Shown here piece after piece: positions 5,463 through 31,515 of a DNA stretch of 33,751 nt. Below the pieces are notes generated by a model. The model was given only the letters and a program-made list of their open reading frames with translations. It was not told the origin of the DNA and did not search any database. Both the position numbers and the translations under genes were made by a program. Location of the stretch: NCBI GenBank assembly GCA_014730065.1, contig WJIW01000603.1:1-33751 (forward strand), in the 5' to 3' direction. How positions within the stretch are numbered: position 1 is the stretch's first letter; each line of letters starts with the position of its first letter. This DNA comes from Armatimonadia bacterium (GTDB lineage: Bacteria > Armatimonadota > Zipacnadia > UBA1398).

Positions 5463-5518
5463 GGGCACGCCTCCGTTACCCAGCCAGCACCCGCAGCTCC
5501 CGCTGACTGGCCCACGCG

Positions 5519-5548
5519 ATGCTGGCAAACACACAGGAAACTTGTCAA
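5519..5548 (-). promoter_or_regulatory. Putative promoter of the cyclase/ATPase gene
   Basis: Minus strand TTGACA (5548-5543), 18 bp spacer, weak -10 CAGCAT (5524-5519). Confidence 0.4.
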
Positions 5549-9666: not shown

Positions 9667-12060
9667 GTGTCCGGTCGAGCTGAGGCGCAATCGGGCGAGA
9701 GGCAGTCCAATCACACCGAGGCGTCACCGCGCGAGCCTGAGCCGAGATCTCGGCGCGTCGACCTCGCCCTGGAGGCTGCCGGGGCGGGGATCGTCAGTCA
9801 CCACCTGCCCACCGGTGAGCTGCTCGCCGATGAGCGCGCCGCCGGCATCCTGGGCCACCCGCGCGAGGGCCTCCCCACATCGATCGAAGGCTGGTGGGAG
9901 CTAACCCATCCCGACGATATCGAGCAATGCCGCGGCAGCCTGGATGCCCACCTACGGGGCGAGACTTCCAGCTACTACTGCGAGACCCGCATGGGCGACG
10001 CCCAGGGCCAGTACCGCTGGATCTCGATCCGCGGCAGGATCACCGAGCGCGATGAGGCCGGCCAGCCCACGCGGGTGGACGGCATCGTCATCGACATCGA
10101 TGAAGAGAAGCGCCGTGCCGCCCTGACCGACACCCACGGCCAGGTAATCCGGGGACTGACGCAAGGGTACTGGCACGTGGACCGCGACGGCCGGACGGTG
10201 GCAGCCAACCCGGCTATGACCGAGATGCTCGGCGTGGCTGAGGATGCGCTCCGGGGCGGGCCCTTCTGGGAATACGTAGCACCCGAGCTTCGCGACCAGA
10301 CCGAGGAGCTTTGGAGCCGGCGCTCCGCCGGGACCGCCGAGCGCCATCCGAGCGTTCTCGTACATGCGAGCGGCGACAGGGTGGAGGTGGAGATGAGCGC
10401 CCTCCCTCTCTTCGACGCCGCCGGCGAATTCGATGGAGCCGTCGCCCTGGTCACCGACGTTACCGAGCGCAACGCCGCCGAGCGCGAGCTAAGGGACCGG
10501 GAGCGCGCACTCGAGCAGCTCGTCGAGCAGATCCCCTACCCCATGCAGGTGCTCGACACCGACGGCACTGCCGTCATGGTCAATCAGGCCTTCCTGACCA
10601 CCTTCGGCATCGACTCCGCCGAGCGGGTCATCGGCAAGTACAACGCCCACACCGATCCCCTGATCGACCATGTCGGCCTCAGGGAGGACGTTCTGCGGGC
10701 CTTCGCCGGAGAAGTGCCCCCATGCAGGGAGTTCATGCTGGAGCTGAGCGAGCCGGCGCGCAAGTTCGGGGCCAAGCGCGACGGGAGACTCTACATGGAG
10801 ATCACCCTCTTCCCCGTGCTCGACGAGAGCAGCCAGGTGCGCCAGGTGGTCACCATCTGGCGCGACCTGACCGCCGAGAAGCGCGCCAGGGAGGAGCAGC
10901 GACTCGCCGAGAGACAAGCCGAGCGCTCCCAGAGACTGGAGAGCCTGGGAGTCCTCGCCGGCGGCGTGGCCCACGACTTCAATAACATCCTCGCCGCCAT
11001 CCTGGGCTATGCCGAGATCACCGCCGAGAGACTCTCCGATGACGGGCCCGCCAAAGCCAACCTCGAGGAGATCATGAATGCCGCCGAGCGCGCCGGACAG
11101 CTCAGCCGGCAGATCCTGGATTTCACCCGCAAGGGGGATGAGGAGCGCAGGGAGCTGAAGCTCCAGCCCATCCTGAAGGAGACCGTCCGGCTGCTGAGCG
11201 CGACTCTGCGAGCGGCCGTGGAGATCCGCGAGCGAATCGATCCCCACGTGGGCCCCGTGCTAGGCGATGCCAGCCGGCTCCATCAGGTGGTCCTCAACCT
11301 CTGCACGAATGCCCGCCAGGCGATCGTCGGCCCCCATGGCACTATCGAGGTGGGTCTGGGCGAATGGACCTCCGGCGACGCCCTCGAGCAGGGCCGGCCG
11401 CCGCTGCCCCCCGGCCGGTACGCGCACATCTGGGTCTCCGACACAGGCTGCGGCATGTCGGCCCAGGTCCTCGAGTCCATCTTCGAGCCCTTCTACACCA
11501 CCAAACACGCGAGCCAAGGCTCGGGGATGGGGCTGGCGATGGCTCAAGGCATCGTCCAGATGCACGAGGGCCTGATAACCGTGGAGAGTGCTGTGGGCAC
11601 CGGGTCCACCTTCCATGTGTACCTACCGATCCACGAGCCGGGCCGGAGCCAGGGCGCGGGACGGCGCGACGGTCGGGTGCCCGAGGGGGACGGCCAGCAC
11701 ATTCTATTGGTCGACGACGATGAGACCATCCTCAGCGCCCTGCAGCCGATCCTCAGCCTCCTTGGCTACCGCGTCACCGCCCGCTCCGACCCCAAGGAGG
11801 CTCTCGCCGACTTCTCGGCATACCCCGGCGAGTTCGATCTGGTCCTTACCGACCAGCTCATGCCCGACATGCTGGGCTCCGAGCTGGCCGCGGAGATCCA
11901 CGAGGCCCGGCCCGAGCTACCCGTCATCCTCCTGACGGGCTACGCGCGGGAGCTGACTGTCGACGAGATCGCCGCAAGCCACCTACGCGCGCTGCTCCAG
12001 AAGCCCATCGCCAAGTCGGACCTGGCCAGGGCGGTCGCCGACGCCCTGGGCCGCGCCTAG
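9667..12060 (+). CDS. Hybrid sensor histidine kinase (PAS repeats - HisKA - HATPase - REC)
   Basis: PAS/PAC segments ending in DVTERNAAERELR and RDLTAEKRAREEQ; H-box LGVLAGGVAHDFNNILAAILGYAE; ATPase VSDTGCGMSAQVLESIFEPFYTTK; receiver ILLVDDDETILSAL...DLVLTDQLMPDMLG. GTG start. Confidence 0.93.
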   Translation: MSGRAEAQSGERQSNHTEASPREPEPRSRRVDLALEAAGAGIVSHHLPTGELLADERAAGILGHPREGLPTSIEGWWELTHPDDIEQCRGSLDAHLRGETSSYYCETRMGDAQGQYRWISIRGRITERDEAGQPTRVDGIVIDIDEEKRRAALTDTHGQVIRGLTQGYWHVDRDGRTVAANPAMTEMLGVAEDALRGGPFWEYVAPELRDQTEELWSRRSAGTAERHPSVLVHASGDRVEVEMSALPLFDAAGEFDGAVALVTDVTERNAAERELRDRERALEQLVEQIPYPMQVLDTDGTAVMVNQAFLTTFGIDSAERVIGKYNAHTDPLIDHVGLREDVLRAFAGEVPPCREFMLELSEPARKFGAKRDGRLYMEITLFPVLDESSQVRQVVTIWRDLTAEKRAREEQRLAERQAERSQRLESLGVLAGGVAHDFNNILAAILGYAEITAERLSDDGPAKANLEEIMNAAERAGQLSRQILDFTRKGDEERRELKLQPILKETVRLLSATLRAAVEIRERIDPHVGPVLGDASRLHQVVLNLCTNARQAIVGPHGTIEVGLGEWTSGDALEQGRPPLPPGRYAHIWVSDTGCGMSAQVLESIFEPFYTTKHASQGSGMGLAMAQGIVQMHEGLITVESAVGTGSTFHVYLPIHEPGRSQGAGRRDGRVPEGDGQHILLVDDDETILSALQPILSLLGYRVTARSDPKEALADFSAYPGEFDLVLTDQLMPDMLGSELAAEIHEARPELPVILLTGYARELTVDEIAASHLRALLQKPIAKSDLARAVADALGRA

Positions 12061-14297
12061 GGCCGCCATCCCTCGACGGTCTCCCCCGCCGCCAGCTCCA
12101 CAACCAGGTCGTCGCCATCGGGGACCACGGGCACCGACCACTCGCCCGCCCCACCGAAGCAATCGCGAATCCGTACCCGACCATCGCTGCCAGCGGTAAC
12201 CCGCACCCAAGTCGTGCGGCCTTCCTCCCTCCGCGCCGATACCCGGTGCCCGCCCTCGGCCCGCAGGTCCGCGAAGGAAGCATCGGCCCAGGAGTCCGGC
12301 ATCGAAGGGAAGATCCGTACCACCGAGCTGGAGGGATCCGAGGGGTCCGTCGACCAGGATTGCAGAAGCATCTCGTGCACGGCCTGGGCCGCCAGGAAGT
12401 TGCCCTCCAGGGTGAAGGGGCGGTACGTGAACCCCGAGTACCCCGAGCGAGTCTGGTCGCCGTTGACATGGAAGCCGTTGCGGAGGACAAAGGCACGCAC
12501 GAAGATCTCCAGGTTGTCCAAGGCCGCCTCCGGCTCTCCGGCACGGGCCCGCAAGCATGACATCCACGAGAAGCTGTACCCGACCCACGCCTGGGTACCC
12601 AGCTCGTCGTAACGGGCGTTCGTGGCCTCGATGATCCGGCGCTGGTCCTCCCCCGCCTCGACGTGTATGAGCCCGAAAGGGTGAATGGCCATACTATGCG
12701 ACAGGTGACGATGGGACTCCCGCACCGGCTCCCCCTCGGCGAACATCAGGCATCCGGTGCCGGGCTCGATCACGGGGCTACCCAGCCCATCGGCGGCGGC
12801 ACGCCACGAGGCCGCCTGGTCCGCCTCGCCCATCGCGCGAGCCATGGCGGACAGGGCCAGGAACAGAGCCTTCATGCAGGCGGAATCGTAGTTGCTGTTG
12901 GGCTCTAGCCAAGCGTCCAGTGAGTTGTCGTGGACCTCCGGCGACGACGACAGTGGCAACCGGAGCGTGCCCTCGGCGTCCGGCTCCAGCAGATCCAGCA
13001 GCGACCTGCCAATCTCCGAGCACCACGGGTACGCCCGGGTGCGAAGGAACACATCGTCGGCGGTGTAGAGCCAGTGCTGGTAGTACATCCAGCCGATCCA
13101 CGCCGCGTTGGTCGGCGACAAGCTGTACTGGGACCATCCCCCCAGCGGCGTGCCATCGAGAGCCATCACGCCCGGTATCGCGGCCCCGCTCGTACCGTAG
13201 AAGTCGCTGGCGAAACGGCGGAACTCGGGCAGAAGCTCCCACATGAACTCCAGGAAGACCCGCCCCTCCTCCCAGTGCCCCGCCGTCAGGTATGCGTGGT
13301 ACGTCATCTGGGTGTTGAGGTCGTGGTGGTAGTCGCCCTTCCACGGCGGTAGTCCCCCCGCATCGGCCGTCCATACCCCTTGCAGAGGCATCGGTGGGGC
13401 TCCCGGCCGCGAGGCCGCGCCGTGGAAGTACTGCACGAGGTAGTAGTGTCTCAGGATGTCATGATCGGGAACCCGAATCCATGACTCCGACCAGAAGGAC
13501 CGCCACCATTCACGATGGGGCCCGGCCATGGCCTCGTAGCCCTGCGACAGCGCCGCGTGCACGGTCTGCCAGGCCTGGCCCAGAACGTCGCGTCCCCCGC
13601 GAGACGCCGCTACCGTGGCTGCCACGAGCGTTCCCTCTGGCGTATCGCGCCATGCCACCATGCCTACGTACATAAGGTCCAACGCACCCTCTTGAGTGTA
13701 CCACCGGCTGGAGGGGCCACTGCCTAGGTCGGCGGGAGGGTACTCCAGAACATCCACCGAAGCCGGCGGCTCGATTCGCACCTCGCCCAGGGGCGCGCCC
13801 GGGATGTACATCAGAGCCACGGGCTGGTCGGCGGAGTAGAAGCAGCGCAAGGCGTGGCCCGACGACATGAGCGCGCTCGCCTCAGCGGTGGCAAGGTGCA
13901 GCCGAAAGGTCTCCAGATGCCTCTCGCCCAGGTCGATCTCCACCCGCCCGGCGGGGATCTTCGTCGGGTGAGGCACCGAGCCGTAGGGGGCGTCGAAGAG
14001 CCGGTTGATCTCGGCCTGATCGCCTTCGGCCACGAGCCTCTGGAGCGTGCTCCAGGTCCACCCCTCGGTCTGCGTCACCTCGGCCGGGCGCAAGTCCCAC
14101 AGGTCGCCCCGATCGAGGGAGAGCCGGAGCGTGGATCCCTCGCCCCACAGCAGCCCACCCAGCAGCCCATTGCCCAAGGGGATCGCCTCGTCCCAGGTCG
14201 TGATCGGGGCATCGAGGACAAGATCCAGGTCCGCCGGGGGCAGGTAAGCTTCATCGGCGGCGCCCAGCAGTAGCAGAGGGATCAGCGCGGACGGCAT
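12057..14297 (-). CDS. Secreted glycoside hydrolase, GH95 (alpha-L-fucosidase)-like
   Basis: MPSALIPLLLLGAADEAYLPPADLDLVLDAPITTWDEAIPLGNGLLGGLLWGEGSTLRLSLDRGDLWDLR; RPGAPPMPLQGVWTADAGGLPPWKGDYHHDLNTQMTYH; LEGNFLAAQAVHEMLLQSW. AAGGAG SD before ATG at 14297. Confidence 0.82.
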   Translation of the reverse strand: MPSALIPLLLLGAADEAYLPPADLDLVLDAPITTWDEAIPLGNGLLGGLLWGEGSTLRLSLDRGDLWDLRPAEVTQTEGWTWSTLQRLVAEGDQAEINRLFDAPYGSVPHPTKIPAGRVEIDLGERHLETFRLHLATAEASALMSSGHALRCFYSADQPVALMYIPGAPLGEVRIEPPASVDVLEYPPADLGSGPSSRWYTQEGALDLMYVGMVAWRDTPEGTLVAATVAASRGGRDVLGQAWQTVHAALSQGYEAMAGPHREWWRSFWSESWIRVPDHDILRHYYLVQYFHGAASRPGAPPMPLQGVWTADAGGLPPWKGDYHHDLNTQMTYHAYLTAGHWEEGRVFLEFMWELLPEFRRFASDFYGTSGAAIPGVMALDGTPLGGWSQYSLSPTNAAWIGWMYYQHWLYTADDVFLRTRAYPWCSEIGRSLLDLLEPDAEGTLRLPLSSSPEVHDNSLDAWLEPNSNYDSACMKALFLALSAMARAMGEADQAASWRAAADGLGSPVIEPGTGCLMFAEGEPVRESHRHLSHSMAIHPFGLIHVEAGEDQRRIIEATNARYDELGTQAWVGYSFSWMSCLRARAGEPEAALDNLEIFVRAFVLRNGFHVNGDQTRSGYSGFTYRPFTLEGNFLAAQAVHEMLLQSWSTDPSDPSSSVVRIFPSMPDSWADASFADLRAEGGHRVSARREEGRTTWVRVTAGSDGRVRIRDCFGGAGEWSVPVVPDGDDLVVELAAGETVEGWRP

Positions 14298-14393
14298 GGC
14301 GACACTCCTTACGCGAGCGATGCAGGCGGGTACTTCGGGCAGGAGGAACGGTGCAACCTCCCTCAAGCCTCACAGACCGCCTAAGGAGATCCC

Positions 14394-15455
14394 ATGCGCA
14401 AAGCAGTCCCCTGGCTCATCGCCCTCAGCGCCGTCGCCCTTCTCATCGCCGGCTGGCAGACCGCCCGCGACACCACCCTCGTCACCGTTCGGACCGCCGA
14501 CGAGCTGCTCCGCGAGGTCCCCCATGCCGCCGGCCGCACCATTGTCCTGGCCCCCGGCGTCTATACCATCGAAGAAACCCTGGACCTGAGCGGTCAGAAC
14601 CACGTCAACCTGCGCGGGTCGGGCTGGAACACTACCATCAAGAAGCTCGGGCCCGGCCCCGCGATCCTCCTCGAGGAGAGCCAGTTCACCGTCATCGAGG
14701 ACCTGCTGATCGGTGGCGGCGAGGGAGCCGACGTGGGCATCCTCTACCGCGGCTATAGCAGCTCCAACATCATCGCCCACTGCCGCATCACGGGGTTCGA
14801 GGAGAGTGGCGTCCGCTACGAGGGTACCGCCGAGAAGCCCATGTCCACCAACACCCTCCGGGACTGCCATTTCATCGACAACCGCGGGACCCAGCTCCAC
14901 TCCCTCTGGAACAACGACTTCTACATCATGGGGAACCAGTTCGGGCGCTGGCGACACGTGCCCAGAGTGGGCTGCCACCTGGAGCACTCGTCGGCGGGGA
15001 GCTATACCCTCAACTACCATTGGGACAACGAGATCGGCCTGTGGCTCGGGCCGGGCTCGGACTACAACCGAATCGAGAACAACCGCCTGGAGGAGAGTCG
15101 CACCCATGGGCTGCTCATCGGCAACCCCGAGGAGCCCGACCAGTGGAACCGCTACAACACCATCACCGGCAACACCATCCACACCAACTCCAAGGAGAAC
15201 TGGCGCGGATACGCCGCCGTCCTCGCCTACGATGCCCATGACACCATCTTCAGCTCGAACCAGATCTTCAGTTGGTATCCGCCGGAGACGCAGCATCGCG
15301 AGGGGCTAGTGCTGGAGCGGGGCAGCTTCGACTGGATCGTGACAGGGAACATCATGCGCCACCAGAGCGAGCTGGCGATCCGCGCCCTCCCCGACCACGG
15401 CCATCTGATCAAAGATAACCTCATCGACACCGAGCCGTGGGAGGCCCCGGAATGA
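14394..15455 (+). CDS. Right-handed parallel beta-helix repeat protein (pectate-lyase-like fold), secreted or membrane-anchored
   Basis: N-terminal hydrophobic segment; TADELLREVPHAAGRTIVLAPGVYTIEETLDLSGQNHVNLRGSG...RIENNRLEESRTHGLLIGN...YNTITGNTIHTNS. SD AAGGAG. Confidence 0.8.
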   Translation: MRKAVPWLIALSAVALLIAGWQTARDTTLVTVRTADELLREVPHAAGRTIVLAPGVYTIEETLDLSGQNHVNLRGSGWNTTIKKLGPGPAILLEESQFTVIEDLLIGGGEGADVGILYRGYSSSNIIAHCRITGFEESGVRYEGTAEKPMSTNTLRDCHFIDNRGTQLHSLWNNDFYIMGNQFGRWRHVPRVGCHLEHSSAGSYTLNYHWDNEIGLWLGPGSDYNRIENNRLEESRTHGLLIGNPEEPDQWNRYNTITGNTIHTNSKENWRGYAAVLAYDAHDTIFSSNQIFSWYPPETQHREGLVLERGSFDWIVTGNIMRHQSELAIRALPDHGHLIKDNLIDTEPWEAPE

Positions 15456-15937: not shown

Positions 15938-16777
15938 GTGTCGGAGATAAGCAGGCGGTTCAAAGGCGCCTTGATCGGCCACTTCAGGTCCTGGTCCTTC
16001 ACCTGGGACCTGGTGTGCTCCTTCGGCGCCGTGTACCTGCTCCAGCGCAACTTGCCCCACTGGACCGGCGACGAGATCCGGGACAACGTGGTGCTCTACG
16101 TCTGCATCGCCGCCTTCGCGCTGGCCTGTCTTGTGGCGTACCGGCGTGCCAACAGCCTCCGGACCGAGACCTCATGGACGGACCCAGCCCAGGAAGACAA
16201 CCATGGGGCCCTCCTGACCGCCGAGGTGCTCTGCTCCATCGCCGTTGTCTTCATGCTGCTGATCCCACCTTTCGCCTTCATCGCCGCCAGAGCGCCGTCG
16301 GCCCTGGTGCCTACCGCCATGGCCCTCCCGGTGCTCCTGGTCAACCTGACCATCATCGTGGTCGCGTCCATAGGCGTGTTCTTCCTACTATCCGGCTACA
16401 CCCTGGGCACCGAAGGCTACTCCGTCTTCGCCTGGGTCATCGTCGTCCTCGGCTTCTCGCGCTCCGAAGTGGCCGAGCGGGTTACCGATGGTCTTTCCGG
16501 CGTGCCCTTCCTGCCGGCTCCCAGTATCGGAGCGGCGGCGGGGGCCGTGAGCCGCGTCTTCACGCCCCCCATCGAGGAGCTCATCAAATCAAGCATGGCG
16601 GGCACATGGGCTGGCCACGGCCTTCACCTGGCCCAAGGGCTGCTTATCGCCGCCTTCACGCTGTGCCTATCGGCCTACGTCGTCAGCCGGTGGGGGAAGT
16701 ACGATCGGCGCGAGCGCCGGGAGATCCGGGCCCAGGACCGCCAGGGCTCCTCGGCGGGCGACGCCGACGCGGCCTAA
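15938..16777 (+). CDS. Polytopic membrane protein of unknown function
   Basis: From GTG 15938 (VSEISRRFKGALIGHFRSWSFTW...), four or five hydrophobic stretches (NVVLYVCIAAFALACLVAY, VLCSIAVVFMLLIPPFAFIAA, TAMALPVLLVNLTIIVVASIGVFFLLSG, YSVFAWVIVVLGF, LLIAAFTLCLSAYVV). The track's extension to 15701 is low-complexity and antisense to the yjfB start. Confidence 0.7.
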   Translation: MSEISRRFKGALIGHFRSWSFTWDLVCSFGAVYLLQRNLPHWTGDEIRDNVVLYVCIAAFALACLVAYRRANSLRTETSWTDPAQEDNHGALLTAEVLCSIAVVFMLLIPPFAFIAARAPSALVPTAMALPVLLVNLTIIVVASIGVFFLLSGYTLGTEGYSVFAWVIVVLGFSRSEVAERVTDGLSGVPFLPAPSIGAAAGAVSRVFTPPIEELIKSSMAGTWAGHGLHLAQGLLIAAFTLCLSAYVVSRWGKYDRRERREIRAQDRQGSSAGDADAA

Positions 16778-16790
16778 GCGGGGTGCCGCT

Positions 16791-18464
16791 GTGACCGGCC
16801 ATAGAACCCGATCCACAACCAGCCTTCTGAGCGGAGCCGCGCTCGTTCTTGTCACCTGCATGGCCTCGGCCTGGGGTCAAGTCACTGTCGGCGATCGCGG
16901 GCGCCAGGGCGGGCGCGATCTGGAGCCCGCTCGGGAGACGCTTCGCCCCTTCACCGACTACCGCCGCTCGGCCCTGGTCACCGTGTACGTCTATCCCGGC
17001 GATGCCGCCGCCGAAGTCTACCGGAACGACGAGCTGGTCGCCGAGCCCCAGCCCCGGGGCCCGGCCGACAACGCGCTGATGGTCCGCTTCTTCGATATCG
17101 ACCCCAGGGGCGAGACGGTGGCCTTCCTCATCTACAAGGAGGGCTACCGCGACGCGCGGCTCTTGGTGCGCATCGGGCGCCATACGAACCAGGTCCTGGG
17201 TGTGGTGCTGGCTTCGGACTATGAGGCCGACCGCATCCTCTTCGAGACGCCCGGCCTGGGCGGCTCCGCCATCGCCGCCGTCCTGCCCGATGGCAGCGAC
17301 CGGGCCATCGTGGTGGACACCCCCGACGCCGACTCCCAGCCTGCCGTCGCCCCCGGAGGGTACCGCGTCGCCTTCGCCTCGGGCGCCCCCGGCGCTCGCC
17401 GCGTACTCATCTTGGACCGGCGCACGGGCGACATCGAGGCCCTCCTGGACGAGCAGGGCAGCGACTACTCCAGCCCCGGCTGGCTCGATGATCGGCGCGT
17501 GGTGGTGCTCCGCCGGTTTGGTGGACACGCCGATATCGAGATCCATGACCTCGACTCGGGCACGCGCCGAGTCATGCCCGGCACGGGGGAGGTCAGAGAC
17601 CCCGTGCCCGATCCACGTGGGGGGCGGGTCGTGCTGGCCTCCGATGCGTACGGCGCGGGCTGGGACCTGGCCGAGTGGGACCTGGGCTCCGACCAAGTGC
17701 ACCGGGTCACCTCCCTGCCCGGCGACGAGTGGGCACCCGCCATCAACCCCCTGAACGGCCGGGTCGCCTACGCGTGGGACGCCGGCGAGGAGGCCGGGCC
17801 CGCCATCGCCCTGGGCGCCGGCGACCCTCCGGTGGTGTTCCGCGCGCCGGCTCGCGAGGCCGCCTTCGCGCCCGACGGCGAGCTGCTGTTCGTCCTCACC
17901 CCCGAAGGCGTCGTCGGGCAACCCCCCGGCGTCACCTGGTGGGCCCATCCCGCGCGGAGCGAGGTGGCCGTGGGCGGGCTCACATGGGGACGCTTCGCCC
18001 GCCTCGATCCCGAGCCCGCCCTGGTGGTCCTGGAGACCGATGTGGGCCGCGGGCTGATCCGGGTGGATCCCGCTGACCAGCCCATGGCGGCTCGGCAGTT
18101 TCTCGACCTGATCGACACGGGCTTCTACGAGACCACCCGCGTGCATCGGGTCAGCCCCGGCCTGGCGGTGCAGCTCGGCTGTCCCCTGGGCAACGGCACG
18201 GGCGGCGCGGGGCCTCCACTCCCCCCCGAGCCCTCGCGACTGGCCCTGGAACGGGGCCGAGTCGCCTTCGAGCCCGAGGGCGCGGGGCTCGCATCCTCGC
18301 GACTGTTCATCGCCCTCGACGACCTCCCCCACATGGACCACCCCGGTGCTTTCGGCGAGGTGGTCGAGGGACTGCCCGTGCTGAGCCGCCTGCTCCCCGG
18401 TGACCGCATCCGGCGCACCTACCGCGTGCGCTTCGACGAAGCCGACTACTTCGCCGAGCCCTGA
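16791..18464 (+). CDS. Secreted TolB/WD40-like propeller protein with C-terminal cyclophilin-type peptidyl-prolyl isomerase domain
   Basis: Signal peptide ...LLSGAALVLVTCMASAWG; PEGA-like segment VTVYVYPGDAAAEVYRNDELV; TolB-like repeats (DSQPAVAPGGYRVAFAS, SDYSSPGWLDDRRVVVLRR, EWAPAINPLNGRVAYAWD); C-terminus VVLETDVGRGLIRVDPADQPMAARQFLDLIDTGFYETTRVHRVSPGLAVQLGCPLGNGTGGAG...SSRLFIALDDLPHMDHPGAFGEVVEGLPVLSRL, which aligns by eye to cyclophilin. Confidence 0.8.
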   Translation: MTGHRTRSTTSLLSGAALVLVTCMASAWGQVTVGDRGRQGGRDLEPARETLRPFTDYRRSALVTVYVYPGDAAAEVYRNDELVAEPQPRGPADNALMVRFFDIDPRGETVAFLIYKEGYRDARLLVRIGRHTNQVLGVVLASDYEADRILFETPGLGGSAIAAVLPDGSDRAIVVDTPDADSQPAVAPGGYRVAFASGAPGARRVLILDRRTGDIEALLDEQGSDYSSPGWLDDRRVVVLRRFGGHADIEIHDLDSGTRRVMPGTGEVRDPVPDPRGGRVVLASDAYGAGWDLAEWDLGSDQVHRVTSLPGDEWAPAINPLNGRVAYAWDAGEEAGPAIALGAGDPPVVFRAPAREAAFAPDGELLFVLTPEGVVGQPPGVTWWAHPARSEVAVGGLTWGRFARLDPEPALVVLETDVGRGLIRVDPADQPMAARQFLDLIDTGFYETTRVHRVSPGLAVQLGCPLGNGTGGAGPPLPPEPSRLALERGRVAFEPEGAGLASSRLFIALDDLPHMDHPGAFGEVVEGLPVLSRLLPGDRIRRTYRVRFDEADYFAEP

Positions 18465-19006
18465 CGCACAGACCGGCCCTTGCCTCGCCGGGTTTCCAGA
18501 AGCCAGCACCTCCGGATCTGCACCTCCTCGGGATCGGCCTCCCGGAGGGTATCCAGCAGAGCCCGGCACAGCTCCGACGGGGCATCCTCCGGCTCCACTC
18601 CCAAGGCTCGAGCCACCACGCTCATGGGCTCACCTAGCGAGACCAGCGCGAAGGCGGCGCGGTGGGGAGGGTGGATCGACAGGTCTCGGGCCCGGGCCAG
18701 GAGAGTCACCCGGGCCCGCTCCCAGTACTTCTTCACACGGCTACGCGGCATGTTCAGCTCTCGGGCGATGGACTTGATCGTACGTCCCGCCGCCCACAGG
18801 GCGATGACACGATGGGCCGATTCGGGCAGGTCGTCCCCGGGCCACCACCGCCCTGCGACGTCATCGAGACTGTCCCTGGCCAGGGCATCGTCGGCTCTCT
18901 GGAGCGCCGAGGGCGCCTGGCTGAGGGAGACCGTGCGGCGGCTGCGTGGCAGCCATCGCCTGCTCCGTTGCGCGTACTGTCGGATGGAGGGTGTCTGGCA
19001 TGACAT
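18446..19006 (-). CDS. Helix-turn-helix regulator-like protein
   Basis: HTH-like SAHRVIALWAAGRTIKSIARELNMPRSRVKKYWERAR and a second VSLGEPMSVVARALGVEP; SD AGAAGG before ATG at 19006. 3' end overlaps the convergent gene. Confidence 0.65.
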   Translation of the reverse strand: MSCQTPSIRQYAQRSRRWLPRSRRTVSLSQAPSALQRADDALARDSLDDVAGRWWPGDDLPESAHRVIALWAAGRTIKSIARELNMPRSRVKKYWERARVTLLARARDLSIHPPHRAAFALVSLGEPMSVVARALGVEPEDAPSELCRALLDTLREADPEEVQIRRCWLLETRRGKGRSVRQGSAK

Positions 19007-19007
19007 G

Positions 19008-19038
19008 GATCGCACCTTCTCTCGGAAACGGTGCGATC
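19008..19038. repeat. Perfect 9-bp inverted repeat at the HTH gene start (putative operator or RNA hairpin)
   Basis: GATCGCACC (19008-19016) / GGTGCGATC (19030-19038), 13-nt spacer; overlaps the SD region of the 19006 start. Confidence 0.6.
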
Positions 19039-19120: not shown

Positions 19121-20380
19121 TCAGCGGGTGGAGTTGAGCCCGATCTGCACGTCGGCCTCGGGACAGTCGGTGGTGACGCCCCCGCCTCCGTGGAACCGAT
19201 TCCCGTAGATCAGCGCGCACTCCGTCTCACCCTCGACGAGGACATCGAGCTGGTCCTCCATCATGAATTGGCAGCCGTTGACGGTGAGCCCGCCCCGCAG
19301 GCTCCGGACGGCTGGGATGGACGCATCGACCGCGCCCCAGCCCGAGAAGTGGCACGCGGTGAACATGGTGTGCCCCGTGCCCTCCAGGATGGCCTGCTCC
19401 TGTGTCTCGGGTATGGGCCAGAAGCCGCAGGCGGTGAACTTGACCGGCCCACGGTTACTCTCGGCGATGCGTACGGTGGACATGAACTGGGAGTTGGCGA
19501 AGCTGATGCCGGAATGGGGCTGCACGGCGTCGACCAGGACCGCTGTGGGACCTATGTCCGCCCCCGACTGAGTGTAGACGCCGTTGCCGGGGCCGTGGCC
19601 GAAGTCGGCGAAGTGGAAGCCCACCTTGTACCAGATGGTGAAGCAGTTCAGGAAGTACTCCCAGTCGGTGCGGCCGATAAGGAAGGCCGTGGCGTTCTGC
19701 TGGGTCCACTCCATGGCTTCCTCGTCGGCCCGCCAGAAGGGCCAGAAGTGGACGTCCTGGACCCGGCCCACGTCGTAGCACTGGTCGATGAACAGACCCT
19801 TGTACAGGGCCTGGGCGTACAGACCTCGTATGTAGTGCCTCCCAGCCGGGAAGGTGCCGAAATCCACCGCTTGGTAAGGGTTGATGAGCAGGCAGTCCAG
19901 AATGGTGCAGTTGTCCCCGATGCCCCGCACGCACCACGGGTATGGCACCGGCGGCATGGTCTGCTCGGGATGGAACACCACGATCCCCTTCAGCACACTG
20001 TTCTCGTGAAGCGTGATGAAGGGCTCGCCGTCCTCCTCGCCCCGGCCCGCGTAGGCATGGAGCACGCTGCCCCCTTCGGCACTGCGCACGGGGGCCCGGA
20101 ACACACCCTCCAGCGTCACGTTCCGCGGCACCGACAGGTTGCCGTCGATGCGGTACGTGCCCGGCGGAACGCTGACCACTCCGCTCCCCGCCTCGGCCAC
20201 ATGCTCCATGGCCGCCTGGAAGGCTAGCGTATCGTCGCGCTCGCCATCGCCCTCAGCCCCGAAGTCGGTCACGCTCACGTGCCAGCTCTGCTCGGAAGCC
20301 GGGGTGCGGATCACCCCCCCATCGGCGACCGCCGCCGAGGCGATCACCGCCCACGCGGCCACTAGCCACAGGTGTCTCAT
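19121..20380 (-). CDS. Secreted right-handed beta-helix protein (Pectate_lyase_3-like)
   Basis: MRHLWLVAAWAVIASAAVADGG signal peptide; VTDFGAEGDGERDDTLAFQAAMEHVAEAGSGVVSVPPGTYRIDGNLSVPRNVTLEGVF. Confidence 0.85.
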   Translation of the reverse strand: MRHLWLVAAWAVIASAAVADGGVIRTPASEQSWHVSVTDFGAEGDGERDDTLAFQAAMEHVAEAGSGVVSVPPGTYRIDGNLSVPRNVTLEGVFRAPVRSAEGGSVLHAYAGRGEEDGEPFITLHENSVLKGIVVFHPEQTMPPVPYPWCVRGIGDNCTILDCLLINPYQAVDFGTFPAGRHYIRGLYAQALYKGLFIDQCYDVGRVQDVHFWPFWRADEEAMEWTQQNATAFLIGRTDWEYFLNCFTIWYKVGFHFADFGHGPGNGVYTQSGADIGPTAVLVDAVQPHSGISFANSQFMSTVRIAESNRGPVKFTACGFWPIPETQEQAILEGTGHTMFTACHFSGWGAVDASIPAVRSLRGGLTVNGCQFMMEDQLDVLVEGETECALIYGNRFHGGGGVTTDCPEADVQIGLNSTR

Positions 20381-20402: not shown

Positions 20403-21218
20403 CTAGCCGATCAGCTCACGCAGGTAGTCCACATCCCGGCTCGCCCGCGCCAGGACGTCGTCCACCCCGTCGGTGCCCGAGTACTGGCCGTGCAGGCTGA
20501 TGGGTCCGTCGTACCCCGCCGCCTTCAGGGCCCGGATCGTCCCCGGCCAGTCCTGAAGTCCCTCGGAGAGCTGCACCCACTCGTCGTCCCAGTGGGAGTC
20601 GCGGCCATTGGCGACGAACCGGTACCGCACGTTCTTCGCGGCGACCATCCGTAGCGACGGCCGCGCGATGTCCACGGCCATGGCGATCAGCTCACCCTCC
20701 AAGGCGAGATGGCCGGGGTCGATGTACAGCCCCACCCGGTCGGGGTCGATCCCCTCCAGGGCGAGCATGCCCCCTGTGGCGTGGGACCCGTACCGGTGGC
20801 CCGAGTGGTTGTGGAGCAAGAAACAGACCCCCGTCTCGGCGGCGATCTCCGCGAAGCCCGCCAGGTCGCTGCGCACGCGATCCAGGCCCGGCCAGAACCC
20901 CTCACCGGGATCCCACCCCCAGTACCCCAGCTTCAGGTAGGGGATCCCCACACCGGCGCACGCGGCGGCCAGGTCGCGCACCGGCTGCTGACTCGGGTCG
21001 GTCCAGCTTCCCTCCAGCGTCACCAGGGGTACGCTCAGCCCGGCATTGGCGAACACTTCCATGGCCGGCGCCAGGGTCGTCTCGAAGTCGCCGGAATTGA
21101 CGCAGTAGCCGCCCCGCACGGTCAGGTCCAGGCCATCCACGCCGATTTCCCTGGCTTTCTCCGCCGTTTCCTCGGCGGACAGCCCTTTCAGGGATTTCGT
21201 GAAGAAGATCAGGTCCAT
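20403..21218 (-). CDS. Sugar phosphate isomerase/epimerase (xylose isomerase-like TIM barrel)
   Basis: MDLIFFTKSLKGLSAEETAEKAREIGVDGLDLTVRGG...IPYLKLGYWGW...VCFLLHNHSGHRYG...DRVGLYIDPGHLALEG...GYDGPISLHGQYSG. SD GGAGG 9 nt upstream of ATG 21218. Confidence 0.87.
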   Translation of the reverse strand: MDLIFFTKSLKGLSAEETAEKAREIGVDGLDLTVRGGYCVNSGDFETTLAPAMEVFANAGLSVPLVTLEGSWTDPSQQPVRDLAAACAGVGIPYLKLGYWGWDPGEGFWPGLDRVRSDLAGFAEIAAETGVCFLLHNHSGHRYGSHATGGMLALEGIDPDRVGLYIDPGHLALEGELIAMAVDIARPSLRMVAAKNVRYRFVANGRDSHWDDEWVQLSEGLQDWPGTIRALKAAGYDGPISLHGQYSGTDGVDDVLARASRDVDYLRELIG

Positions 21219-21241
21219 TCGCGTCAACCTCCGCTCCTTCA

Positions 21242-21305
21242 GGGGGTTCTCCCCCATCGAGGCCGGGGCCTACACAGGAAGCCCGGCCACCGGGGAGAAC
21301 TCCCC
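21242..21305. repeat. Nested dyad in the divergent TIM-barrel/sulfatase intergenic region
   Basis: GTTCTCCCC (21246-21254) / GGGGAGAAC (21292-21300); inner GGCCGGG (21261-21267) / CCCGGCC (21282-21288), nearly the same centre. Each outer arm lies in its own short dyad (GGGGGTTCTCCCCC; GGGGAGAACTCCCC). Confidence 0.6.
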
Positions 21306-21327
21306 ACCAAACCTGGAGGAGGCCGCC

Positions 21328-22710
21328 ATGCCCCCGAGCCCCAACTTCCTGATCTTCATCACCGACCACACCAACGCCCAGGCCCTCAGGCCCCAGAGCC
21401 AGTGCCGCACCCCCAACCTCGACGCCCTCGCCGAGCGGGGGGCGCGCATCGAAGGCATGTACACGGTCAACGCCATCTGCTCGCCATCGAGGGCCACGCT
21501 GATGACGGGCATGCACCCATCGACCCACGGCGTCTGGGACTGCACCCATACCCAGCGGAGGGAATGGGTCGACGTGCGCGGCTACCCCTTCTGGAGCGAG
21601 CGGCTGGCGGCGGCGGGATACACGTGCGGGCACTTCGGGAAGTGGCATGTGGAGCAGTCGGGCAAGCTGGACCAATACGGCTTCCTGGAGTACGACCCGG
21701 ACGGGAGCGCCAAGCTGAAGGCACGGGCGCGCCGGCTGGAGATCACCAAGCCGGGATACCGAGACTACCTTATGGCGGGCGTGGACGACGAGCCGCCGGC
21801 GACCCACCAAGCCGTCGACAAGGGGATCGATTTCGTGCGCCGCCACGGCGGTGATGGGCCCTTCGTCTGCGTCGTCTCCACCGCCGAGCCCCACGATCCC
21901 TATGTACCGCCGGCGAGCTTCCTCGATACATACGACATCGACTCCATCGAGCTGAGCCCCACGGCCCATGAGGACGTCGCGGCCAAGCCCGAGGTGGTGC
22001 GGCGAATGGCCCAGATCTGGGAGGGGCTGACCGATGCCGATTGGCGCCTGGCTCGGGCCTGCTACTTCGCCACCGTGAGCTTCCTGGATGCCGAGGTGGG
22101 ACGGGCCGTGGATGCGCTGGAGGAGGCCGGAGTCGCCGAGGATACTGTCGTGCTGTTCCTCTCCGACCACGGCGACATGCTCGGGGCCCACGGCCTGGCC
22201 ACAAAGGGCATCGGCACGCCGTACGAGGAGGTCTACAACATCCCCCTGGTCGCGTGCGGGCCGGGCATCGCGGCCCAGGGCAGCCTGCCCCACCGAACCA
22301 GTATGGTGGACCTAGCGCCGACCCTATGCGACCTGGCGGGGGCCCAGCCCCTGGCGGGCGGTCAGGGCCGGTCCCTACGCCCTGTCCTCGATGGCACCGC
22401 GGACCCGGCCGAATGGACCTCAGCCTATGCCGAGTTCTACGGCCAGCGGTTCGTCTACACCCAGCGCATCGTCTGGGAGGGCCCCTGGAAGTACGTGTTC
22501 TCGCCGGGCGGCGCCGACGAGCTGTACAACCTGGACGAGGACCCCGAGGAGAGACACAACCTGGCAGGAGACGCCGCCAGCCGAGAGCGGCTGGAGGCCA
22601 TGGCGACGGCCATGTGGCGCAAGGTCAAGGAGATCGGCGACGAGTCGCTGCTCCACTCCCATTACGCCACGCTTCGCACGGCGCCGGTGGGGCCGCTGGT
22701 TGCCGACTGA
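21328..22710 (+). CDS. Sulfatase (S1 family, Cys-type formylglycine motif)
   Basis: MPPSPNFLIFITDHTNAQALRPQSQCRTPNLDALAERGARIEGMYTVNAICSPSRATLMTGMHPSTHG; CxPxR = CSPSR; VVLFLSDHGDMLGAHGLATKG; SD GGAGGAGG before ATG 21328. Confidence 0.92.
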   Translation: MPPSPNFLIFITDHTNAQALRPQSQCRTPNLDALAERGARIEGMYTVNAICSPSRATLMTGMHPSTHGVWDCTHTQRREWVDVRGYPFWSERLAAAGYTCGHFGKWHVEQSGKLDQYGFLEYDPDGSAKLKARARRLEITKPGYRDYLMAGVDDEPPATHQAVDKGIDFVRRHGGDGPFVCVVSTAEPHDPYVPPASFLDTYDIDSIELSPTAHEDVAAKPEVVRRMAQIWEGLTDADWRLARACYFATVSFLDAEVGRAVDALEEAGVAEDTVVLFLSDHGDMLGAHGLATKGIGTPYEEVYNIPLVACGPGIAAQGSLPHRTSMVDLAPTLCDLAGAQPLAGGQGRSLRPVLDGTADPAEWTSAYAEFYGQRFVYTQRIVWEGPWKYVFSPGGADELYNLDEDPEERHNLAGDAASRERLEAMATAMWRKVKEIGDESLLHSHYATLRTAPVGPLVAD

Positions 22711-25042: not shown

Positions 25043-27070
25043 ATGCGCACGGCCGGACTGCCGCACCTGCTTCCGCTCCTAGCCATCGCCACACTCCTGG
25101 CGACGTTGCTGCCCATGGGCTGCGCCGGGGGCGCGCCCGCCCCGACCAATGGGGACGATCCTCCAGTAGGTGACTCCGACATCCAGAACGCCATCACCAC
25201 AGGCGACGCCCTCGGCGCTCTCTACCAGGCCCAGTGCGCCGCGGGCACGTGGGACTCCAATGCCTTCGCCGCTCAGGTCGGCGCCATGGCGGGCATCGGC
25301 TCGGCGACGGCCAATGCCACCTCGGGCGACGTGACAGTCGTTTACGACTCGGGGATCATGCACCTGTTCCATGCGCCCCACGACGAGGGCCCGACGGACG
25401 ACCTGCCGCCCGTGGAGGCAGCCTCGTCGAGCGAGGCCGCTCCGCGGGCCATCCCCTTCCAAGCGACCCACCAAGCCACCGTGGGCTTCAGCCTGGACAG
25501 CACCGACCAGCACTTCGGTCGGGTGCGGTCAGCCTGTGCCTCCATCCTCCGAAGCGCCCGGACCGCCGGATACCAGACCCCGCGAGCCAGCTTCACCGCC
25601 GATGTGGACTGGTTCCGGTCGTGGAGTGATTACTCGCTCATCTTCGTGGAGGGACACGGCGGTTACGGCGAGTACATCGATGCTGCCGGCGACCGCCAGC
25701 GGCTGTTCTGTATCGAGACGACCCAGAGCTACCGGTCCATCGCCGCCGTGCCCAGCGCATACTCAGCCGACCTGGCCAATGGACGCCTGATCTTCATGCA
25801 CGCGCCGGGCCAGCCTCAAGGCGTGCTGGCCGTTACCCGGGAGTTCCTCTCCCATCACGTCCGGCGGTTGCCGCCCGATAGCGTGGTGTTCATCAATAGC
25901 TGCTACTCCGCCGACACCGACGACAACATTTGCAGCACCGTCCGGAGCATGGGCGCCCAGCTCGTGCTTGGCTGGAATGGCCCCGGCCCCCTGGCCCACG
26001 CCGCCGACTGGGCCGCCTACTTCTTCGACCGGTTCCTGGGCGGCAACGACAAGGAGCCCCAGGATCCACCCACCCGCCCCTTCCCTGCCGATGAGGTCTA
26101 CGCCCACATGCAGACCCTCGGCCGCACGCAGCATATCTTCCCCGACACCGGGCTGGTCGGCACCCTCACCGCCTCGCCGCACTTCGGCTCCGAGGAGATC
26201 CTCTCCCGCCCCATCCTGCACTCCGGTGTCGTCATCCCGCCTAGGTCCCGAACGACGGGGTACGCCCGCATGATTCTGGGAGGTAAGTTCGGCAGCGACC
26301 GGGGCGAGGTCTACGTCGGTAACACCCTGATGCGGCTGATCTCCTGGTCCGCGACAAGCATCGAGGTGGAGCTGCCCGACGATGGCGCCGGCTCTACCGG
26401 CGACGTGACGGTCCGCGTACAGGACCTCCAGAGCAACCCCATGCAGCTCACACGCTTCGAGGGCGACCTGGTCATCGACGTGACCAATCCGGGACAGTAC
26501 TCGGGCACCGTCGACCTGGACCTGAACGGTAGGGGCCTGGTACACGTAAGGCGCGAGGAGGTGGACGCCGAGCCGGTCTCGGCCTTGCCCACACCCCGTA
26601 CATACTGGGTCCTCCAGGAGGACGGGCAGCTCAGGTGGGACATCTCCGGCTCCTGGACCGACGGCGAAGGCGGCGTGTACGGCCTCGATGCCAACGGAAG
26701 CGTCCGGACTCCAACCACGAGCACCGATCCGGGTGGCGTCATGTGGGCCATGGACTTCGATCCGGTGAACGAGCAGTACCGCATGAACTTCCTCATCACC
26801 GTGACGGGCACGTACTCCTACTCGGTGCCCGGCGTCGGCTCGGGCACCCGCGAGCACGCTCTGGGCTTCACGACCCCCGGCTACACCGAGCCCGAGGACC
26901 TGCAGGACGGTCTGGTGGTGCCCACGGGCACGTACTCGACCACTAGTGCCGATGGCACGAGCTACACCATGACATGGAACACCCTCTACCCCACTCCGTC
27001 GGGCAGCGGTTGGGACGCCTACCCCGCGTCGGCTAGGCTTGGTCCAGAACGCGCCGCACCTGCTCGGTGA
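25043..27070 (+). CDS. Predicted lipoprotein, caspase-clan-like (CHAT/C25-like) cysteine protease with IPT/TIG-like domain (paralog A)
   Basis: MRTAGLPHLLPLLAIATLLATLLPMGCAGG lipobox; WFRSWSDYSLIFVEGHGGYGEY (His205, 25655-25657), SVVFINSCYSADTDDNICSTVRSMGAQLVLGWNG (Cys287, 25901-25903); GEVYVGNTLMRLISWSATSIEVELPDDGAGSTGDVTVRVQD resembles IPT/TIG. SD AGGAGGGG. Confidence 0.8.
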   Translation: MRTAGLPHLLPLLAIATLLATLLPMGCAGGAPAPTNGDDPPVGDSDIQNAITTGDALGALYQAQCAAGTWDSNAFAAQVGAMAGIGSATANATSGDVTVVYDSGIMHLFHAPHDEGPTDDLPPVEAASSSEAAPRAIPFQATHQATVGFSLDSTDQHFGRVRSACASILRSARTAGYQTPRASFTADVDWFRSWSDYSLIFVEGHGGYGEYIDAAGDRQRLFCIETTQSYRSIAAVPSAYSADLANGRLIFMHAPGQPQGVLAVTREFLSHHVRRLPPDSVVFINSCYSADTDDNICSTVRSMGAQLVLGWNGPGPLAHAADWAAYFFDRFLGGNDKEPQDPPTRPFPADEVYAHMQTLGRTQHIFPDTGLVGTLTASPHFGSEEILSRPILHSGVVIPPRSRTTGYARMILGGKFGSDRGEVYVGNTLMRLISWSATSIEVELPDDGAGSTGDVTVRVQDLQSNPMQLTRFEGDLVIDVTNPGQYSGTVDLDLNGRGLVHVRREEVDAEPVSALPTPRTYWVLQEDGQLRWDISGSWTDGEGGVYGLDANGSVRTPTTSTDPGGVMWAMDFDPVNEQYRMNFLITVTGTYSYSVPGVGSGTREHALGFTTPGYTEPEDLQDGLVVPTGTYSTTSADGTSYTMTWNTLYPTPSGSGWDAYPASARLGPERAAPAR

Positions 27071-30000
27071 GGGCCTGAACGGTGAAGGGTTTTTGGAGGA
27101 AGTTGATGCCCTGCTCCATGACGCCCCGATCGGTCAGGACGTTGTCGGAGTATCCGGACATGTAGAGCACCTTTATGTGGGGATCGATGCGGCGGATGGT
27201 GTCGTATAGCTCCCTGCCGTTCATGCCCGGCATGATGACATCGGTGATGAGCAGGTCGATGGGACCGTTGCCGCGATCCAGCAGCTTCAGGGCCTCGCCG
27301 CCGTCCTGAGCCACCAGCACCTGGTACCCGCGCCGCTCCAGTAGAGATTGGGTCATGCCGCGAACCTGCTCATCATCCTCAACCAGGAGGACCCTCTCGC
27401 TGCCCCCCAGTGATTCGGCAACCAGCGCAGGCTGCTGTGCGGCCGTCTGGTCGACCTCGGCAACGGGAAGGCTGACCTGGAACGTGGCGCCCTGGCCCGG
27501 CTCGCTGTAAACCCGGACCTCCCCGCCGTGCTGCTTGATGATCCCGTAGACGATGGACAGCCCGAGCCCCGTGCCCTCCTCCTTGGGCTTGGTGGTGAAG
27601 AAGGGCTCGAAGAGCTGGGCCTGCATCTCGGGCGGGATGCCCTGGCCCGTATCGGTCACGGACAGGGTGACGTACGGGCCGGGCTCGACCTCCGACGAAG
27701 CGGCATCGAACACCCGTACCCCTGTCTCGATGGTGAGGGTGCCTCCGTCGGGCATGGCGTCCTGAGCGTTGACCGCCAGGTTCATGATGACCTGCTCGAG
27801 CTGCCCCACATCGGCCGTCACCGGCGGCAGGGATGGCGCCGCCACCGTCCTGATCTCGATGTCCTCCCGCAGGGTGCGTCTGATCAGCTTGCCGAAATCG
27901 CTCAGTACCTCGTTCAGATCGACATGCTTGACCTCCAGCATCTGCTTGCGGCTGAAGGCCAAGAGCTGGCGCACCAGGTCGCGCGCCCGCATGCCCGCAC
28001 TGAGCATCTGCTGGATCTGCTGAGCCCGTGGATCCGATGCGTCCAGATCCTCGAGCAGAATCTCGCCATAGCCGATGATGGGCGCCAGCAGGTTGTTCAG
28101 GTCGTGGGCGACCCCGCCCGCAAGCCGGCCTACCGACTCGATGCGCTGCGCTTGGTGCACCTGGGCCTGGAGGTCGGCCTGGGCCGCTTCGGCCTCCTTC
28201 CGCTCGGTCACGTCCCTAGCGATGCCCACGTACATGATGGGGTTGCCGTCGTCGTCGAACATGGCGGCACCGTTGGACGTATGCCACCGGATCTCCCCGC
28301 CGGGCCGGATGACCCGGTATTCCACGCTCTGGTCCGGGGTCCCCGTGCTCAAGACCTGCCCCAGGAACTCGTCGCACAGGTGTACATCCTCGGGATGCAC
28401 ATAGGGCCTGAATGACCTGCCCGTCGCCGCCTCGGCCGGTTCGCCCATGTGCTCGAGCCAGTTGGGCGACACGTACGTGAACACCCCTTCGGCGTTGAGG
28501 GCGTAGACGATGTCATTGGCATTCTCGACGAAGGACCGGAACCGGTGCTCGCTCTCACGCAAGGCCTCCTCGGCCCGGCGCTGCTCGGTGATGTTCTGGG
28601 TGATGATGATGACGTGACCGGTGAAGGAGCCATTGAGCCGGATGGGTATGCCCCGGTTGGCGTACAGGTTCCCCGCGTATTCCACCTCATAGTACACCTC
28701 CTCGCCCGCCACGGCCCGGCGCGTGTGCGGCTCCACTATGGGCCACAGGTCGGGGAAGACCTCGGAGACATGCCGGCCGACCACCTCCTCCGACCTCAGC
28801 CCCACCCTGGCGAACTCCTGACCGTCGGCGGCGAGGTAGTGCATGCTTCCGTCCAACAGGAACAGGGCCCCGTCGGGGAAGTGGGCCGCCAGCGAGCGGT
28901 AGCGCGCTTCGCTCTCCCGGCGTGCCGCCTCGGCCTCCTTACGCTCCGTCACATCGGAGGTGAAGGCATCGATGGTGAAGCTGCCGTCGTCGTACCGGTC
29001 GGCGATCCGGGCGTCCATGACAAGCCAGATGATCCGGCCGGTCCATGTGCGGGCCCGGTACTCAAAACCCTCAACGTAGCCATGGGCGGTTAGCTGCTCC
29101 AGGAACCTGTCTCGGGTGCCTTCGTCCACGTACAGGTCTCGGGCCAGGTCGGTGTAGTTCGCCAGGGCGTGCTCGACGGAATCGAAGCCGAGAATCCGCG
29201 CCATGGTGCTGTTGATCGCCAGCGGGCGGCCCGACGAGTGAGTCGTAACGATGCCGATGGGGGCGTTCCCGAAGGTATCGCGGAAGCGCTTCTCCCTCTC
29301 GACCAGCGCTCTTTGGGCTCGGTTCCGTTCGGTGACATCGACGGCCATGGCGTACGTGACGCCCTCTTCGGGCACCGGATGGGAGTTCCACTCCAGCTCC
29401 ACATACTCGCCGTCCTTCCGGCGGTAGCGGTTGGAGAAGGCGATGACCTCATGGCCCTCCCGGAGCTTCTCTTCGACGATCCGTGTGGTGGGCTCCACGT
29501 CGTCGGGGTGGATGAACTCGTAGAAGGGCTGCCCGAGGAGCTCCTCCTGGCTGTACCCCAGCACCGTCTCGAAGGCGGGGTTGACCTGCATGAAAGTCGC
29601 CGTCTGGATGTCAGCGACGCAGATCAGGGCCGAGGACATCTCACAGAACCGGCTGTAGGTATCCTGGACCCGGCGCGCCTCGGTCACGTCCAGCGCAATG
29701 GAGTAGGTGACGCCATCCTCCTCAACGGGACGCGCGTTCCACTCCAGCTCGGCGTACGAGCCGTCTTTGCGGCGGTAGCGATTGGAGAAGGCGATGACTG
29801 GCAACCCCTGCTCCAGTCTCTCTCGCACAACTGCGTTGGTGGGCTCCACATCGTCTGGGTGCATGAACTCGTAGAAGGCATGCCCCACCATCTCGTCGGC
29901 GGTGTATCCGAGCACCCGCTCGAAGGCTGGATTGACCTGAAGGAACGTATCCGTCTTCAGATCGGCGATGCAGATCAGCGCATCGGCCATCTCGCATAGC

Positions 30001-31373: not shown

Positions 31374-31429
31374 CATGCCCCGTCACATGTGTTCCACACC
31401 TGGCCAGCTCAACCCTACCCCGGGGCATG
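31374..31429. repeat. 9-bp inverted repeat in the divergent kinase/sulfatase intergenic region
   Basis: CATGCCCCG (31374-31382) / CGGGGCATG (31421-31429), 38-nt spacer. Confidence 0.5.
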
Positions 31430-31515
31430 TTAGCTCTCACAGGCCCGCGGACGCATCTCGGCGAACAGGGGTTTCGGTAGAGCATATGAACCAGAGCCCG
31501 AGAGGAGTCGGCCCC

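Follow-up and report, generated by a model that had tools for sequence, protein, structure and literature searches.

A gene in the window (the whole 33,751-nucleotide stretch of Armatimonadia bacterium DNA that we analyzed) encodes a TolB/PD40-type propeller joined to a C-terminal cyclophilin whose catalytic Arg/Gln pair is kept while most of the surrounding pocket is replaced. In every genome where the fusion was found, its gene adjoins one for a multi-pass membrane protein. What makes the protein distinctive is the combination of a putatively exported TolB-type propeller, a PEGA-like domain, an eroded active site and an orphan membrane partner. We give about an even chance to the reading that it is a membrane-associated envelope scaffold, partnered with a membrane protein, in which a weakly active or inactive cyclophilin serves for binding.

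Architecture of the fusion protein

The open reading frame has exactly the coordinates given in the first-pass annotation of this DNA, and the following features were assigned to it.

16791 to 18464, plus strand: propeller-cyclophilin fusion gene; ORF of 557 aa with a GTG start, matched in Pfam, PDB and NCBIfam, with homologues in two further genomes
16791 to 16877, plus strand: putative signal sequence, residues 1 to 29; sequence VTGHRTRSTTSLLSGAALVLVTCMASAWGQ, helix 12 to 29 in the model, hydrophobic segment 10 to 28 in the homologue L006
16968 to 17207, plus strand: PEGA-like beta domain, residues 60 to 139; all-beta, pLDDT about 83 to 95, PEGA E = 0.045 in one family member
17226 to 17996, plus strand: six-bladed TolB/PD40-type propeller, residues 146 to 402; TolB in PDB, TIGR02800 and TolB in Foldseek, with low confidence in the blade 6 region (373 to 394)
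18018 to 18428, plus strand: cyclophilin domain, residues 410 to 546; PF00160 E = 3.1e-17, pLDDT about 85 to 97, Foldseek cyclophilins at E about 1e-9

Homology and fold both mark the C-terminal part as a cyclophilin. PF00160 matched residues 412 to 534 with 63.7 bits (Pfam cut-off, 21.7), and a phmmer search of PDB aligned residues 419 to 542 with the Geobacillus cyclophilin 2mvz (E = 8.3e-15). By the same kind of search, residues 148 to 355 matched TolB (E = 5.3e-9), and the NCBIfam model TIGR02800 (TolB) reached E = 3.6e-6, with 26.2 bits against an equivalog cut-off of 343. PD40 stayed below threshold in the window protein and matched two of the three family members (best E = 2.5e-34); no Pfam WD40 (PF00400) match was found in the family. 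The PEGA label is not firm, since its basis is a weak match to PF08308 in one family member and an all-beta domain in the model. Given the Pfam, PDB and NCBIfam matches, the combination of propeller and cyclophilin is real and far from a chance observation.

An AlphaFold2 model, with the three fusions and the propeller and cyclophilin sequences of other loci as input, had a mean pLDDT of 81.6, and its three domains lay mostly at 85 to 97. It showed strands at 61 to 139, six blades at about 146 to 402 and a cyclophilin at 410 to 546; pLDDT was low in the signal sequence, the linker at 22 to 49 and residues 373 to 394. When the model was compared with PDB by Foldseek, TolB came out on top (E = 7e-14), followed by spliceosome chains and then by cyclophilins. 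The spliceosome chains were 9fmd_w, 7a5p_z and 5yzg_2, with alignments of 434 to 535 columns; 5yzg_2 is PPWD1 by sequence search, and 7a5p and 9fmd are further entries of the same sequence. The Pfam and PDB matches and the model bear out the domain split that the first-pass annotation had made by eye, and the motif it quoted, VHRVSPGLAVQ, was correct, its catalytic Arg being R453. The N-terminal hydrophobic signal, judged by inspection, suggests that the protein is exported and supports the location read at that time. The homologue L006 has a lipobox-like LASC, by which the protein of that species would be a lipoprotein anchored in the membrane.

The frame of the fusion was conserved: a congener has it as an ORF of 583 aa, and a distant homologue keeps it as well. 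Between the congeners, dN was well below dS (about 0.32 versus about 1.6, NG86), a dS that is near saturation and makes the dN/dS figures rough. An overlapping antisense ORF at 16683 to 18569 was rejected as a real gene, as its frame was split into short pieces in the congener; it is a high-GC shadow.

The fusion is inherited with an upstream membrane protein

Full-length fusions were found in at least 3 of 291 Armatimonadota genomes, all in one order, a lower bound because scoring was confined to the four top first-look candidates of each genome. The carriers, all uncultured, were the window's genome, one congener (about 57 to 58% identity) and one genome of the same order (about 33%). Full-length matching records came from Armatimonadetes bacterium UBA1398 (L025, with the ORF as in G001) and Armatimonadota JPNA_maxbin.160 (L026, with the ORF as in G002). 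A scan of 84,980 species genomes with two short peptide patterns gave no further full-length member in its top 80 loci. Other long cyclophilin ORFs (L050, L081, L138, L142 to L147, L150 and L152) showed no propeller in Pfam and/or NCBIfam, the Pfam scan being one that misses the propeller of the window protein too.

In a tree of 121 cyclophilin domains the three fusions did not form one group (two changes, with one sufficing in 11% of bootstrap trees), and the stem of the genus pair was long, at 3.2 changes per column. Placement of the fusions in this tree is unsafe because of such long branches. Their common origin follows from full-length colinear homology and a shared operon, and not from the tree.

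Two genes flank the fusion gene.

15938 to 16777, plus strand: membrane protein of 279 aa encoded upstream, with four or more hydrophobic segments; ORF with its start set by homology, hydropathy
18446 to 19015, minus strand: convergent HTH (sigma-70 region 4-like) protein; Pfam HTH_7 / Sigma70_r4_2, with a 38% identical counterpart at the same place in L025

The membrane-protein gene ends 13 bp upstream of the fusion gene. Members of its family are multi-pass proteins of about 275 aa, and in all three fusion genomes they adjoin the fusion on the same strand. The membrane protein of the window is 62% and 30% identical to those of the other two genomes, and the distant pair aligned with E = 2e-25 in BLASTP. 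A profile search of the 291 Armatimonadota genomes recovered the family in the same three genomes as the fusion and in no others. Since the two genes occur in the same three genomes and adjoin each time, they form a conserved, co-inherited pair. The first-pass annotation had overlooked this constant neighbor, which had no Pfam or PDB relative and gave a poor structure model (pLDDT 46); its strict pairing with the fusion would be the first functional lead for an orphan membrane protein. The HTH gene had no match in the locus of the third genome, and its product is probably a neighbor in the genus only, not part of the pair. Neither the fusion nor its two neighbors, the membrane and HTH proteins, had a match in a library of anti-phage defence systems.

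Other genes of the window include two for PAS-rich hybrid histidine kinase-receiver proteins (27033 to 31346, minus strand; 9667 to 12060, plus strand) and one for a 1346-aa protein with a double zinc ribbon, an adenylate/guanylate cyclase, an AAA ATPase and TPR (1494 to 5534, minus strand). Five more genes, for one GH95 glycosidase, two sulfatases and a pair of beta-helix proteins, lie at 12057 to 14366 (minus), 21199 to 22710 (plus), 31375 to 32949 (plus), 19121 to 20380 (minus) and 14394 to 15455 (plus), and the setting of the locus looks like one of sulfated-polysaccharide degradation. Omp85 was present in G001 and G002 and was not found in the window's genome (G000), where the miss may be due to an incomplete assembly.

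The cyclophilin active site is eroded around a retained Arg/Gln pair

Arg55 and Gln63 (CypA numbering) are the key catalytic residues of cyclophilins. When human CypA was aligned with the three fusion domains and 117 further cyclophilin domains, two stretches of the active site were located in the fusion gene of the window.

18147 to 18173, plus strand: retained catalytic pair R453 (Arg55) and Q461 (Gln63), with L458 at Phe60 and A459 at Met61; alignment to CypA and 117 cyclophilins
18270 to 18344, plus strand: eroded pocket, E494 (Ala101), R504 (Gln111), H514 (Trp121), M515 (Leu122) and P518 (His126); same alignment

Both catalytic residues were kept in all three fusions. Across the three, Phe60 was replaced by L, M or Q, Met61 by A, T or L, Ala101 by E, E and V and His126 by P, P and F; in the window's genus, Gln111 was also changed to Arg and Leu122 to M or N. 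Among the 117 other cyclophilins, Ala101 and Gln111 were invariant, Leu122 was found in 116, and Tyr or His stood at position 126 in 115. Nine conserved active positions were scored, of which the window protein kept four, the congener three and the distant homologue L007 four, compared with seven to nine in the 117 others. None of the fusions has the complete pocket (Phe60, Ala101, Gln111, Phe113, Leu122, His/Tyr126) that we took as the mark of a competent site. The comparison set was recruited by searches with the fusion family, and conservation at positions 60 to 65 was partly selected for, because the two patterns cover CypA positions about 58 to 76; positions 101 to 126 are free of that effect. 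The first-pass annotation had described a retained catalytic Arg with changes in the surrounding aromatics; the Arg is indeed kept, but the site is far more altered than this suggests.

In L007, the loss is specific to the pocket, since 28 of 29 conserved positions outside the active site were intact (Fisher p = 0.0014). The same contrast was not significant in the window's genus (Fisher p = 0.23 and 0.12), because other conserved positions have drifted there too. The changes at Phe60, Ala101, Gln111 and His126 make it probable that the domain has a low general PPIase activity or none. We file the protein with the cyclophilins on its homology and fold, and neither with TolB nor with the demonstrated PPIases.

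A proposed scaffold role and its alternatives

In the mechanism we propose, an exported envelope protein would work together with the membrane protein encoded directly upstream, presumably by physical interaction. The propeller and the PEGA-like domain probably dock the fusion to its partner, which may be that membrane protein or another envelope component. The cyclophilin keeps its fold together with Arg55 and Gln63, but most of the proline pocket and the backbone anchors are lost. It would therefore most likely act as a pseudo-PPIase scaffold that binds a specific peptide or protein and whose general isomerase activity is slight or absent. More tentatively, and with rather less confidence than in the scaffold role itself, the pair may be a two-component envelope complex confined to one Armatimonadota order, in which an exported propeller carries a former enzyme, the cyclophilin, that now serves a multi-pass membrane protein as a regulatory module or by binding specific peptides. 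There are precedents for cyclophilins without efficient catalysis in SDCCAG10 and PPIL2; SDCCAG10 binds peptide without turnover, and the activity of human cyclophilins depends largely on the residue at position 121 (PMC2911226). AtCYP38 is PPIase-inactive (PMC7641896). The protein had earlier been proposed to be an envelope folding factor, of which the envelope and export part agrees with the signal sequence, but the folding part is weakened by the replacement of F60, A101 and H/Y126 in all three fusions.

The scaffold reading is drawn from three fusion sequences, and the retention of Arg55 and Gln63 in all of them counts against it, as this would be odd if catalysis were irrelevant. A serious rival, close to the view of the first-pass annotation, is an active envelope prolyl isomerase of shifted, narrow specificity, for which the propeller would recruit a client and the cyclophilin would isomerise one particular Xaa-Pro bond. 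Besides the kept pair, purifying selection on the cyclophilin domain would fit such an enzyme, and so would AquaCyp300, which shows substrate-selective activity although Arg55, Phe60 and Gln63 are all that it has left of nine active-site positions (PMC4898713). Human cyclophilins with His at position 121 still bind cyclosporin (PMC2911226). We nevertheless consider an active isomerase on the unlikely side, as all three fusions lack F60, A101 and H/Y126 and Q111 is Arg in the genus, with nothing comparable in any of the 117 others. With the Arg/Gln pair kept and the rest of the pocket lost, the domain would lend itself to a clear test of how far catalysis depends on the complete site.

Erosion of the active site and the long branch leading to the genus pair in the tree of cyclophilin domains might also be left by a chance fusion, in which a cyclophilin without a selected role has been decaying ever since the genes were joined. 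This we hold to be very improbable. Purifying selection between the congeners (dN 0.32, dS 1.6) argues that the domain is not decaying to junk, and an open frame, the fold and a dN/dS well under 1 persist. The cyclophilin is moreover better conserved than the propeller, both between congeners (62% versus 55% identity) and toward the distant homologue (45% versus 31%). A sensor pair is somewhat less improbable, though still doubtful: the exported propeller-cyclophilin would read a periplasmic signal or ligand, the membrane protein would relay it and the cyclophilin would be regulatory. Strict co-inheritance with an uncharacterised multi-pass protein would suit this arrangement, as would the adjoining HTH/sigma-region-4-like gene conserved in the genus, but the membrane protein has no recognisable signaling domain and is poorly modeled, and the HTH gene is without a match in the third genome's locus. 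As for a Tol-Pal TolB with an added cyclophilin, acting in outer-membrane constriction, the best matches of the propeller are TolB structures by both sequence and fold. This identity was rejected and has very little probability left: TIGR02800 scored 26 bits against 343, a PEGA-like domain stands in place of the TolB N-terminal domain, tol/pal genes were not found among the neighbors scanned, and none of the 38 to 46 TolB-like propeller matches per genome (G000, G001 and G002) rose above the cut-off. The fusion thus has a six-bladed propeller of the TolB type (model strands, Foldseek), and differs from TolB in lacking its N-terminal domain, in scoring far under the TolB cut-off and in carrying a cyclophilin.

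Related architectures in eukaryotes and bacteria

The first-pass annotation did not recognise the fusion as a named family, and the libraries searched indeed name no prokaryotic family with this architecture. Literature searches did not find a bacterial propeller-cyclophilin reported. In eukaryotes, the propeller plus cyclophilin layout is known from the characterised PPWD1 and AtCYP71 (PMC6315705, PMC7641896), which had been overlooked. Like the fusion, human PPWD1 and AtCYP71 have the propeller (WD40 in their case) N-terminal and the cyclophilin C-terminal (PMC6315705), and Foldseek aligned PPWD1 chains over both fusion domains (9fmd_w, E = 2.5e-12; 5yzg_2, E = 8e-11). PPWD1 is a nuclear protein whose active site is conserved and whose propeller, of the WD40 type, has seven blades, whereas the fusion is apparently exported, with a six-bladed TolB/PD40 propeller, an eroded site and a PEGA-like domain in front; the seven-bladed WD40 propeller and nuclear or spliceosomal location that mark PPWD1/CYP71 do not apply to it. 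Since TM-scores were low (0.2 to 0.3), the two have a layout in common and no common rigid arrangement, and convergence is a more likely source of the likeness than descent. Among prokaryotes, the fusion would be an exported equivalent of PPWD1 in layout.

Among cyclophilins outside the cytosol, the periplasmic AquaCyp300 of Hirschia baltica resembles the putatively exported fusion: it is an exported, enlarged bacterial cyclophilin that retains Arg55 and Gln63 while most of the remaining active positions differ (PMC4898713). It is set apart by a retained Phe60, by activity on hydrophobic substrates and by an extra domain, NIC, that is not a propeller. AtCYP38 and anaCyp40 are also multi-domain cyclophilins outside the cytosol, and CYP38 resembles our reading of the fusion in being PPIase-inactive (PMC7641896), whereas anaCyp40 is enzymatically active (PMC8967839). 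Both differ from the fusion in their N-terminal helical (PsbQ-like) domain and photosynthetic partners.

A further Armatimonadota protein, at L141:290-2209 (plus strand; G244) and L148:1541-3460 (minus strand; G243), combines Cu_amine_oxidN1, a PD40 propeller and a cyclophilin. It shares with the fusion the PD40 propeller and the C-terminal cyclophilin behind an apparent signal sequence, and differs in the copper amine oxidase N1 domain at its start and in a canonical cyclophilin active site. Its cyclophilin is 87% identical to a donor-like paralogue in its own genome and lies elsewhere in the cyclophilin tree. A single origin of the propeller-cyclophilin fusions of the phylum is thus unsupported, and this protein is an independent fusion, a second origin within the phylum. 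With this second origin and the PPWD1/AtCYP71 layout, the fusion of the window is unusual and not categorically new, and because the lineage is narrow and the role of the fusion inferred, its general impact is modest.

Cyclophilins were joined to other partners as well. In G084, a 579-aa frame (L140:1037-2773, minus strand) of an Armatimonadota genome combines a caspase (Peptidase_C14), PEGA and a cyclophilin with a canonical site; to our knowledge, this combination is not a named family. In G005 (L139:63-2129, plus strand), one chain has two unrelated prolyl isomerase folds, a SurA/parvulin PPIase and a cyclophilin, together with a copper-amine-oxidase N1 domain. A 931-aa open frame in G032 (L147:719-3511, plus strand) has a glycoside hydrolase 123-like N-terminal part and a C-terminal cyclophilin. 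The window's genome itself has three further clustered cyclophilin domains (G000:C30:16968-18762), two of them within one 466-aa frame.
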